From the NCBI RefSeq assembly GCF_963360655.1, contig NZ_OY725712.1, forward strand, positions 682,001 through 746,000: a stretch of DNA of 64,000 bases, written 5' to 3'. Position numbers and translations under genes: made by a program. Every line of letters starts with the position of its first letter. Position 1 is the first letter of the stretch. Below the pieces are notes generated by a model. That model was given only the letters and a program-made list of their open reading frames with translations, did no database searches and was not told the DNA's origin. This document shows, piece by piece, positions 6,884 to 16,638 of this stretch. This stretch comes from Collinsella aerofaciens. Its GTDB lineage: Bacteria > Actinomycetota > Coriobacteriia > Coriobacteriales > Coriobacteriaceae.

Positions 6884-7094
6884 AATGTACACAAGGATGC
6901 ATCGAGGAGCGAATCCCAGTAGCGCCATGTCAGCAGCGATGCCGGGCGCATTCGCACGTGCCACAATCCAACCACCAGAGATGAAAACACAGTCCCCGTC
7001 GGGTAGTCGTGGGCGTGCGCTAGTCCGCATCAGTAACCTGCCTCCTTGGTTGTCCCTTCTCTGCATGGTCATCTACATAAAGGAGGAACCAACC
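6884..7094 (+). promoter_or_regulatory. structured yjdF leader with anti-Shine-Dalgarno
   Basis: About 200 nt precede yjdF. CCTCCTT (7041-7047) is an exact complement of the ribosome site AAGGAGG (7080-7086), so the site can be masked. AACC (7035-7038) and GGTT (7048-7051) can instead close a small hairpin that puts CCTCCTT in its loop. Family knowledge: yjdF genes in Firmicutes are often controlled by the yjdF riboswitch, which binds aromatic nitrogen compounds. I could not confirm that consensus by eye, so riboswitch identity is an inference from gene identity, leader length and the pairing. Confidence 0.45.
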
Positions 7095-13561: not shown

Positions 13562-14015
13562 GCGTCGGTTCTGCCGTCCCGTCACTCCAGTTACACCCAG
13601 TTTTCGGCATCGACACGGAACGCGTGCCGCCGAATGGCGCGATGTCGCGTTTCGTCGGCTTCGGGGACAAAAGCTGGGACAACCTCAAAAACTTTTTTCA
13701 AACTCAGGGCTTTGAGTTTTTGTTTTTGTCCCAAAGTGCGCGGCGGGTCGCCTTTGGAGGCTCGATAGCGCCGAAAACGCCCGTTTTGAAACTCAACCGC
13801 CCTTTTGCCCGCAAGCCGCCAGCTGCAATCGCAAGTGAATTAACGCGGGTGGCTTGCGCGCCATTTGCAAAACCCCAGGTCGCAGGTCTTCGCCATTCGT
13901 GAACAAAGTGAGTAGTCTCAGGTGGCTTGCTTATGAGTTGGCGAACGGGCCTTCAGGATTCAGGGCAAACATGCTGGTAGAATAGGATTCTCAAATCAAT
14001 GACAGGAGACCGAGC
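13562..14015. other. island edge without genes
   Basis: No credible coding sequence. A long imperfect hairpin is present at about 13676-13735 (GGGACAA..CAAAAAC against AGTTTTTG..TTGTCCC). A GGTAGAATAGGA box at about 13975 resembles the -10 of the RNA promoter at 14971 and could serve the abi gene. Confidence 0.4.
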
Positions 14016-14978
14016 ATGGCCGAACCCCACGATAGGAAGCCGATCCTCACGATCGAGCAGCAGATAGAGCACCTCAAGCAGAAGGGCGTAGCCTTCGAAC
14101 TGTGTTCCGAGGAAGAGGCCGCGGACTACCTGCGCGACAAGTGCAACTTCTTCAAGCTCGCATCCTACCGCAAACTCTTCTCGAAATACGAGGGAGGCCC
14201 GCGCGACGGCCGCTACGTAGACCTCGACTTCGGCCAGCTGCGCCTGCTCGCGGCGCTCGACCAGGAGCTGCGCCACGCCCTGCTCGGCATGACGCTCGAC
14301 ATCGAGCATTTCCAGAAGGTGACACTGCTTCGCGAGATGGAGGACCGTGGAGAGGACGGCTACGCCATCGTGGCCGACTACATGGCATCGCTTACCAGTG
14401 CAAACAGGGAGTACCGCCTGCGCGAGCTCAAGATGAGCGGCCGCAGCCCCTACAGCTCGAGCCTCTACGCGAAGTACTCCGGCGACATGCCTGCCTGGGC
14501 CTTCCTTGAGCTCACCTCGTTCGGCACCCTCATCGACTTCGTGCGCTTCTGCGCCAGGCGATGGGGCGACAGGCGCCTCGAGGCCTCCCACTACGACCTC
14601 AAGCGCGTGAAGTCCGTCCGCAACTGCGCCGCGCACGGCTCGTGCCTGATCAACTGCTTCGCCGAGAGGGGCGCCGCCCGGGGCTCGGCGTCCAGCGGCG
14701 TCTCCCGAAGGGTCGCCGCCGTGGGGATTCCCAAGGCGACCAGGAGGAAGTGGATGGGGAATACGGCCATGCAGGAGGTCGCGACCGTGCTCGTGGCGCA
14801 CTCCGGCTTGGTACCCGAGGGCTCCTCGCGCTCGCGCGCCGCATCCGAGCTCGCCGAGATGTTCGCCAGGGCCGACGGCGAAACCGAGGCGCTGCCCGAC
14901 AAGGGGCCCGACGCCGCAGCTCGCTCCGCGCTCGAGTTCCTTCGCAGGTTGACAGAATCGCTCGGGTTGGTAGAATAG
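14016..14978 (+). CDS. Abi_2/AbiF-family abortive-infection protein
   Basis: A 320-residue protein with the Abi_2 (AbiD/AbiF) layout: an N-terminal QQIEHLKQKGVAF segment, Y-rich FKLASYRKLFSKY, the DFGQLRLLAALDQELRHALL helix, PAWAFLELTSFGTLIDF in the middle, and RNCAAH at 202-207. The last fits the HEPN RNase motif R-N-x3-H. ACAGGAGACCGAGC precedes the ATG. AbiF-like proteins are HEPN ribonuclease toxins that act in phage defence, and a conserved noncoding RNA has been described beside them. Two paralogous small-RNA units begin right at this gene's stop codon. The C-terminal ~100 residues are less recognisable. Confidence 0.78.
   Translation: MAEPHDRKPILTIEQQIEHLKQKGVAFELCSEEEAADYLRDKCNFFKLASYRKLFSKYEGGPRDGRYVDLDFGQLRLLAALDQELRHALLGMTLDIEHFQKVTLLREMEDRGEDGYAIVADYMASLTSANREYRLRELKMSGRSPYSSSLYAKYSGDMPAWAFLELTSFGTLIDFVRFCARRWGDRRLEASHYDLKRVKSVRNCAAHGSCLINCFAERGAARGSASSGVSRRVAAVGIPKATRRKWMGNTAMQEVATVLVAHSGLVPEGSSRSRAASELAEMFARADGETEALPDKGPDAAARSALEFLRRLTESLGLVE
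14949..14976 (+). promoter_or_regulatory. promoter of small-RNA unit 1
   Basis: TTGACA (14949-14954), 16-bp spacer, TAGAAT (14971-14976). It lies inside the 3' end of the abi gene, whose stop codon overlaps the -10 box. Near-consensus and in the same spacing as the promoter of unit 2. Confidence 0.65.
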
Positions 14979-14982
14979 CCTG

Positions 14983-15045
14983 CAGATAGCAAAACCTTCA
15001 CGGTTTTAGGGGCGGACTTGCGCAAGCGACTCTGCCCTATTTTTA
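14983..15045 (+). ncRNA. small-RNA unit 1 next to AbiF (candidate antitoxin RNA)
   Basis: Predicted transcript from the promoter at 14949. First hairpin AAAACC-TTCA-C-GGTTTT, then a 7-bp stem GGGCGGA/TCTGCCC whose loop contains the palindrome CTTGCGCAAG, ending in ATTTTT. Unit 2 repeats the same order with the same flanks and a different loop. The paired units next to an AbiF gene fit the abiF-associated noncoding RNA described for this toxin family. Identity with that RNA family was not tested. Confidence 0.5.
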
Positions 15046-15083
15046 TATTCACTCGCTATAGGAGACGGATGATACCTGGGTCA

Positions 15084-15111
15084 ATGACAGAACTGAGAAG
15101 CCCGGAATAAT
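15084..15111 (+). promoter_or_regulatory. promoter of small-RNA unit 2
   Basis: ATGACA (15084-15089), 16-bp spacer, AATAAT (15106-15111). Shares the GACAGAA context and spacing with the promoter of unit 1. Confidence 0.45.
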
Positions 15112-15117
15112 GGAGCC

Positions 15118-15178
15118 AGTTAGAAACCCTCGGGTTTGCGGGGCGGGATCATGAGAGCGATTCTGCCCTATTTTTTTC
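15118..15178 (+). ncRNA. small-RNA unit 2 next to AbiF
   Basis: Paralog of unit 1. Hairpin AAACCC-TC-GGGTTT, then GGGCGGGA/TTCTGCCC stem with a TCATGA-containing loop, ending in ATTTTTTT. The segment from GGGGCGG to CTGCCC is 29 nt in both units, with conserved ends and AGCGA but a variable centre. Confidence 0.5.
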
Positions 15179-15275
15179 CTCCGTCTGCCCCAACCAAGTA
15201 GTTCGAAGATAGCCTGTAGGTGTCCTCGTGGGCGCCTTTTATAATATGAGCAGGACATTGTCAATAGGCAATGAA

Positions 15276-15307
15276 GGGCCAAGGGCGATTTCGTTCGCCC
15301 TTGGCCC
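15276..15307. repeat. 13-bp perfect inverted repeat
   Basis: GGGCCAAGGGCGA pairs with TCGCCCTTGGCCC around a 6-nt loop. No T-tract follows on either strand, so it is not a classical terminator. Confidence 0.7.
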
Positions 15308-15555
15308 AATCTATCTCCTCCGCAATCCCCGTTGACAGCGCGTGTCGGATCGACGCCCGTCTGGCAGTTTAATATTCGCCCATCGCGCAGAATGCGCCGG
15401 TGCATCTCGTTGCTACGGCCGGCCCCTCCGTCTCGTCTGTCTTTTGGCGTGCGTGGCGGCTTCGCCGCCGCACGAAAAAAATCCGAGGATGGAGGCCGAC
15501 GCCCGTCGAGCCCGGGAATTCCGGGAAAGACCCGGATATGTGCGCGGCGCTCCCG

Positions 15556-16638
15556 CTAGGCGCCTTCCGCCATTCGGCCCACGGCCCAGCACCAGCAGGC
15601 CAGCTCGCGCGCCACCGCGACGTTGGCCACGCTGCTCTGCTTGCCCGCATCGTCCATGGAGCGGCGCCTGTCGACGAGCCGCCTCACGCCCGCGTTGGCG
15701 TGTCGCCTGGTCGCTGCGTCGACTACCTGCCCCTTGGCCAGGTCTTTCGGCGACCTCGACGCTCCCTTGTAGTGCCAGGCGGCCTCGACGAGCAGCTTTC
15801 TCAGGTGCTTGTTGCCGGCCTTGGTTATCCCGCCGCGGAATCGGGACTCGCCGCTGGAGTGCTCGGAGGGCACCAGGCCCACCCACGCCGCGAAGCCCGA
15901 CGCCGTGGCGAACCTCGCGAAGCCGTCGGCCTCGCACGCGATCGAAGCCGCGGTGACCGCGTCTATACCCTTGAGGCATTTGAGCGCGTCGCAGGTCGGC
16001 TTCCATCTAGGCTGCTGGGCCAGCGACTTGACCTTCGCCTCGAGCGCGGCCTTGGCGGCGTCGGCCTCGCGCACGCGCTCGCAGTAGTGGTCCAGCGTCG
16101 CCATGGCGGCGGCGTCCCCGAGGTCGATGCGGCCCACCCACGCCCAGAAATCCCCGGTCCAGCGGTTGCGCCTCTGGCCGGCGGCGTTCCTCTCGTCGTA
16201 GACGAGCCCGTGCCTGAGCAGGAACTTCGAAAGCCTCTGCTTGGCGCGCACGGCGTCGTCGCGCGCGTCGGCCAGCGCCCGCGCCAAATCCCGCGCGCCC
16301 TCGCACTCGGCATCGGGCACGTGCACCTCGGTGACCACGCCCAGCGCCAGCTGCACCGCGAGGAACTGCGCGTCGCGCCTGTCGGTCTTGCGGCCGCGGT
16401 CCGCGGCGGGCTTGTGCATCTTGGAAACGGCTCCGATCACGCAGGCGGCGCCCATCGCGTTCAGCTCGCGGCAAAGGTGGAAGCCCGTCACTCCCGACTC
16501 GTAGACGCATCTGGCGGGCTGGGGCAGCGAGGACACCCATGAGGCGATCTCGCCGGGCTCGTAGCCGAACGATTTCCTGATCGTCTCGCCCGTTTCCGGG
16601 ACGAACGCGGGTTGATTTCCGATCTCAGCCGAACACAT
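15556..16638 (-). CDS. IS110-family transposase, N-terminus damaged
   Basis: A 360-codon frame with IS110 hallmarks: YESGVTGFHLCRELNAMG (Glu47), KTDRRDA (Asp86 and Asp89) and the C-terminal transposase-20 domain with GFAAWVGLVPSEHSSGES and GGITKAGNKHLRKLLVEAAW. The first acidic residue of the DEDD domain is missing. Upstream, another frame reads MAYLLNVFG, meets TGA, and then shows D-R-K-S-T, so a nonsense change plus a frameshift has removed the start. The copy is probably inactive. Family members recombine via an IS-encoded bridge RNA in their noncoding ends; I could not define the ends here. Confidence 0.8.
   Translation of the reverse strand: MCSAEIGNQPAFVPETGETIRKSFGYEPGEIASWVSSLPQPARCVYESGVTGFHLCRELNAMGAACVIGAVSKMHKPAADRGRKTDRRDAQFLAVQLALGVVTEVHVPDAECEGARDLARALADARDDAVRAKQRLSKFLLRHGLVYDERNAAGQRRNRWTGDFWAWVGRIDLGDAAAMATLDHYCERVREADAAKAALEAKVKSLAQQPRWKPTCDALKCLKGIDAVTAASIACEADGFARFATASGFAAWVGLVPSEHSSGESRFRGGITKAGNKHLRKLLVEAAWHYKGASRSPKDLAKGQVVDAATRRHANAGVRRLVDRRRSMDDAGKQSSVANVAVARELACWCWAVGRMAEGA

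Follow-up and report, generated by a model that had tools for sequence, protein, structure and literature searches.

The pairing of an AbiF toxin with an RNA antitoxin is already known, as is the presence of two RNA motifs at one locus, in RCd22. In C. difficile, RCd22 neutralizes the toxin AbiFCd through direct binding, and the residues equivalent to R202 and H207 of the protein considered here are required for AbiFCd toxicity (PMC12373285). RCd22 is a single RNA located upstream of abiF, with two similar RF03085 motifs, and it is cotranscribed, with read-through (PMC12373285). PbAbiF is described as a HEPN dimer in which each protomer binds one ncRNA (PMC12373285, PMC12737573). The HEPN domains of AbiD/F group with those of Cas13 (PMC12165695); AbiF systems have been proposed as Cas13 ancestors, and AbiF RNAs as ancestors of the Cas13 guides.

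Here we analyze an abiF locus in a window of 64 kb (the whole stretch of DNA studied) from a gut bacterium, a Collinsella on the evidence of its closest relatives, in which the gene is followed by two separate two-hairpin units, U1 and U2 (Table 1). The best explanation of the whole, with a probability that we place at about two in three, is an AbiF toxin with its own antitoxin RNA (U1) and a second, foreign antitoxin RNA (U2). A first-pass annotation of the locus had taken the doubling itself as the novelty, but a pair of abiF motifs is already present in the single RNA RCd22 (PMC12373285). The literature searched, which excluded the main AbiF study (Cell 2025), contained no description of a distinct RNA family downstream of abiF that escapes Rfam, of widespread solitary antitoxin RNAs or of composite loci in which the second RNA is foreign.

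Table 1. Coordinates of the abiF locus within the window
Feature	Position	Strand	Basis or remark
abiF/Abi_2 gene	14016..14978	+	320 aa; predicted HEPN RNase toxin; Pfam, PADLOC, structure model
HEPN motif RNCAAH (R202-H207)	14619..14636	+	R-x4-H; residues 202-207
U1 promoter TTGACA-N16-TAGAAT	14949..14976 (-35 14949-14954, -10 14971-14976)	+	Sequence; overlaps last abiF codons and stop
U1, putative cognate two-hairpin RNA, 63 nt	14982..15044	+	Model R1, 66.5 bits
U1 parts	Hairpin A 14991-15007; hairpin B 15009-15038; T run 15040-15044	+	
U2 promoter-like site ATGACA-N16-AATAAT	15084..15111 (15084-15089, 15106-15111)	+	Sequence; 10/12 consensus positions
U2, second two-hairpin RNA, different type	15114..15175	+	Model R1, 58.6 bits
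U2 parts	Hairpin A 15124-15137; hairpin B 15140-15169; T run 15171-15177	+	

The AbiF protein

The product of the gene matched PF07751 (Abi_2) with an E-value of 1.5e-18 (68.2 bits, against a cut-off of 25.6), and PADLOC labeled it AbiD (E 9.4e-23). R202, H207 and 13 further positions were invariant in an alignment of 35 relatives. The structure model built from this 35-sequence alignment (pLDDT 92.7) had a single Foldseek match with an E-value under 0.001, the PbAbiF dimer with its ncRNA (8VZ6), and VIA-align gave a Z score of 16.0 across 273 residues for this pair, at a sequence identity of 14%. Cas13d chains came next, with Z scores of 7.0–7.5, a level that is not decisive for a helical protein. 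The rows for 14-3-3, TTYH2 and STAT5 in the structural comparison were set aside as helical look-alikes, and a phmmer search of the PDB with the protein yielded only chance kinase matches. The Abi_2 domain, the RNCAAH motif and the fold match to 8VZ6 bear out the original description of an AbiF-type HEPN protein. By domain, motif and fold the protein is an AbiF, and its fold and motif predict a HEPN ribonuclease activity.

The two RNA units

U1 consists of the hairpin AAAACC/GGTTTT, followed by GGGGCGGA...TCTGCCCT and then by ATTTTT, and U2 of the hairpin AAACC/GGTTT, followed by GGGGCGGGATC...GATTCTGCCCT and then by ATTTTTTT. The repeated layout of promoter, hairpins and T run that had been described stands, with two units and the same N16 spacing in both promoters, but the offset between the units is 132 bp rather than about 135 bp, and the U2 promoter is weaker than that of U1. 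A promoter score of at least 9/12 is reached by 2.1% of random 51-mers. The folding z-scores were -2.9 for U1 and -1.9 for U2. A covariance model (R1) built from 15 units of related loci matched U1 and U2 alone within the window, at E-values up to 10. The two units are 78% identical, and in the window copy of U2 one stem pair is disrupted (CATGAG), which could mean that this copy is decaying. The sequence GGTAGAATAG is found both at 13970-13990, before the abiF start, and at 14966-14978, at the U1 -10 box, and the promoters are possibly related.

The search with the Rfam abiF RNA model (RF03085), which had been suggested as a check, recovered neither unit: there was no match in the window scan, none in 14900-15350 at E-values up to 10 and none in the whole genome at 0.001, whereas the same model did match the C. 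difficile phage phiC2, used as a positive control. Rfam models also gave no match above threshold on five AbiF loci from phages and plasmids. With R1, 65 units were found in 65 genomes of the family, and the two-hairpin unit was present in 89 of the 297 sampled genomes of the order, which makes it a large branch of putative AbiF RNAs invisible to Rfam.

The terminator stem is strongly supported among 61 distinct units. Standard pairs accounted for 95.3% of the stem cells in an alignment fitted to R1, which favors the structure, and the paired fraction fell to about 50% in slid-alignment controls. All 13 pairs showed two-sided changes (123 such cells, vs 28 in shuffles), GC, CG, AU and UA pairs were all used at several stem positions, and the covariation score was 0.58, vs 0.23 in shuffles, with none of 500 shuffles as high. 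The hairpin A region contained a stem of at least four pairs in all 61 units; shuffled sequences folded equally well in a median of 6 cases per 100. The apical loop was a GNRA tetraloop in 34 of the 61 units. The -35 box lies within the tail of abiF in frame 0 (R-L-T) in one group of loci and in frame 1 ((V/I/L)-D) in another, and in L112 it is positioned after the abiF stop. The -35 box is thus conserved as a DNA element rather than for the amino acids it encodes.

In an AbiF subfamily of about 380–400 aa (L019, L020, L027, L028 and L029), the unit is located immediately upstream of the start codon, not downstream. At L016, the stretch from the abiF stop to the RNA unit holds a long near-perfect palindrome (GCTAGCTATGCTACACCATCTC/GAGATGGTGTAGCATAGCTAGC), immediately ahead of the unit.

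Association of the units with AbiF

RNA and AbiF distances were correlated across 31 loci (Mantel r 0.68, 0/2000 permutations), and a unit was present at each of the 33 AbiF loci of named genomes that are more than fragments. Genome contigs were scanned for AbiF with a profile narrower than A2, which was too diverse. Of the 46 intact abiF genes in the order sample, 40 had a unit in the list; among the other six, inspection by eye revealed a two-hairpin unit at five and none at L166. Three Abi_2 genes from the same genome as the window (G000; C1:169680-170303, C1:171915-172514 and C6:690662-690922) are not accompanied by an R1 unit. Because covariation is strong and the unit lies behind nearly every intact AbiF of the clade, the unit is likely to be the AbiF antitoxin RNA. 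The earlier suggestion of an associated antitoxin-like RNA is supported.

Origin and loss of the second unit

A near-identical AbiF was found in 18 genomes, 10 within the genus and eight more in the order sample, and the named carriers include Collinsella, Slackia, Senegalimassilia, Olsenella and Thermophilibacter. The locus must therefore have moved recently. None of the 18 genomes lacked U1, and no difference was seen among the U1 copies compared. U2 lay beside U1, intact or near-intact, in 14 of them; in G025 an insertion sequence has separated the pair, and three genomes lack U2. The sequence of U2 varies between genomes, whereas that of U1 does not. In all three losses abiF and U1 remained intact. 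In G068 (L124/L177), U1 is joined directly to what normally follows U2, a product that recombination within the shared TCTGCCCTATTTTT would give. In G028 (L010/L129), the loss involved another junction, and in G271 (L176) the break lies just after the -10 box.

The first-pass annotation had proposed two paralogous RNAs, antitoxins or guides, whose variable loops could set their specificity. Duplication of a single unit is not supported: U2 belongs to the RNA type of a different AbiF lineage (L014/L142/L145), sharing 92–94% identity with the cognate RNA of that lineage, the AbiFs of which are about 41–46% identical to the window AbiF. The U1 loop is constant in the copies compared and more than half of the distinct units carry the GNRA loop mentioned above, which argues against a role of the loop in specificity.

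At least three other lineages hold composite loci resembling that of the window. At L013, L097-L099, L133 and L141, the second unit is nearest the L136 type (AbiF 45% identical), and in the L013-type tandem no promoter of its own was recognizable for this unit. The second unit of L112/L113 is of the L101-L103 type (AbiF 34% identical), and that of G249 is of the L147/L100 type (AbiF 36–38% identical). G250 is a milder case, with a second unit nearest L149/L041. At L102, two units of a single lineage flank a C-terminal scrap of abiF.

Units without abiF

About a third of all units were solitary, with no abiF nearby: 21 of the 65 family units, including the U2 half of the split pair (G025:C22), and 33 of the 97 found elsewhere in the order, although some of these calls lie near contig ends or may hide an unrecognized abiF. 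Four genomes (G001, G020, G044 and G045) carry units yet have no Abi_2 gene anywhere. Stem pairing was 93.8% in solitary units vs 96.8% in the others, and 14 of 19 solitary units had a promoter score of at least 9/12, compared with the chance level given above. Three genomes from two genera share U2-type solitary units without a single difference across 62 nt. At L081, L084 and L089, C-terminal scraps (15–46 aa) of a lost abiF are found just upstream of the solitary unit. Degenerate unit patterns in viral contigs corresponded to abiF loci already known and to one chance match (L160), and no solitary phage units were found. RNA without toxin is common and toxin without RNA very rare, as predicted for an antitoxin. 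Widespread occurrence of the same two units with no abi gene nearby had been named beforehand as evidence against the first-pass reading; single units are indeed widespread in this way, but the U1–U2 pair was found only behind this abiF.

Insertion elements and neighboring sequences

IS110-family elements were observed directly behind or near the T runs of units in the window (15244-16638), in L095 (2557-4129), in L004 and in L079. The L095 copy (1,573 bp) lies between two units, and its inverted ends are 17 bp long (ATATGAGAAAGCCATTG); the window element begins with ATATGAGCAGGACATTG, about 70 bp behind U2. Elements of this family may favor terminators. An azaaromatic (yjdF) riboswitch lies at 6971-7073 of the window, about 7 kb upstream of abiF, and the same riboswitch sequence was found directly behind U2 in L002, L003, L005, L007 and L008, which are devoid of the insertion.

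Interpretation

In the reading that we prefer, U1 would be transcribed from its own promoter in the 3' end of abiF and would fold as two hairpins, the second doubling as a terminator. By homology with AbiFCd/RCd22 (PMC12373285) and PbAbiF (PMC12737573), U1 would bind the AbiF RNase and silence it. U2, the cognate type of another AbiF lineage, would have arrived beside the locus by recombination and been retained as an independent RNA gene. Its presumed role, the neutralization in trans of that other AbiF on competing mobile elements, is the least certain step. Given its 78% similarity to U1, U2 may also bind the window AbiF.

For U2, a neutral relic is nearly as likely as trans-neutralization. 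U2 could be left over from an earlier AbiF locus, or from an allele replacement through unit–unit homology, transcribed but of no present use, which we regard as possible though rather doubtful. The three losses of U2 beside an intact abiF and U1, its variation against the constancy of U1, the broken stem pair in the window copy and the scraps of lost abiF genes that precede other solitary units are all consistent with such a relic. Against it, 14 of the 18 genomes, from several genera, hold U2 intact or nearly so, solitary units generally retain promoter and stem, and U2-type solitary units are identical across two genera.

It is unlikely that U1 and U2 both act as antitoxins on the window AbiF, serving for dosage or as one RNA per dimer protomer in the manner of the RCd22 motifs. 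AbiF dimers do bind two RNAs (8VZ6; PMC12373285, PMC12737573), and RCd22 has two motifs, with U1 and U2 likewise sharing a common architecture, but most AbiF loci studied here have one unit, G068, G028 and G271 lack U2, and U2 is closer to the RNA of another lineage than to U1 (92–94% vs 78%). Very little favors ordinary intrinsic terminators behind abiF rather than RNA genes: hairpin B and the T run would make a good terminator, but the upstream hairpin A is conserved, the units have their own promoter, with a -35 box kept across different reading frames, solitary units are retained with their promoter, and the unit lies upstream of abiF in the 400-aa subfamily. A role of the RNAs as guides that select their targets through the loops, as forerunners of Cas13 crRNAs, is hardly credible despite the grouping of AbiD/F and Cas13 HEPN domains (PMC12165695) and the indecisive Cas13d matches (Z 7-7.5), given the invariant U1 loop, the prevalence of GNRA apical loops (34/61) and the absence of a spacer-like variable segment.

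AbiF loci and the solitary RNA genes could tentatively be viewed as an immunity repertoire. Bacteria and mobile elements would keep antitoxin RNAs of foreign lineages, with their promoters, and thereby survive the AbiF toxins of rivals, and composite loci would combine a toxin with a captured immunity RNA; we consider this conceivable, but less than probable. The loci provide natural experiments, in that U1 was never lost, U2 was lost three times, RNAs outlive toxins and foreign RNAs appear to have been captured in several lineages. This set makes the specificity of RNA–toxin pairing and RNA-based anti-addiction directly testable.

Comparison with known systems

The window locus resembles C. 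difficile AbiFCd-RCd22 in its Abi_2 protein, the HEPN motif with R202/H207 and the presence of two RNA motifs per locus (PMC12373285). It differs in that two distinct RNA genes, each behind a promoter of its own, follow abiF, in that RF03085 does not match and in the foreign type of the second RNA. PbAbiF-AbiFr (PDB 8VZ6; Zilberzwige-Tal et al., Cell 2025, doi 10.1016/j.cell.2025.01.034) is the best solved match, the likeness being that of the protein fold. RF03085 is likewise a small hairpin RNA near abiF genes, but its consensus, CCCGCC-A-AGC...GCU-CAAAUC-GGCGGG, contains a 6-nt one-sided bulge. The type III toxin–antitoxin systems ToxIN, CptIN and TenpIN also place an RNase protein toxin under an RNA antitoxin, as predicted here by analogy, but their antitoxins are tandem repeats located upstream, in one transcript with a toxin of unrelated fold (PMC12373285). 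The window departs from this classical layout, with units that lie downstream of abiF and have their own promoters. Solitary (orphan) antitoxins and anti-addiction modules exist among type II toxin–antitoxin systems. As in those orphans, an antitoxin would be kept here without its toxin, the difference being that the retained antitoxin would be an RNA.
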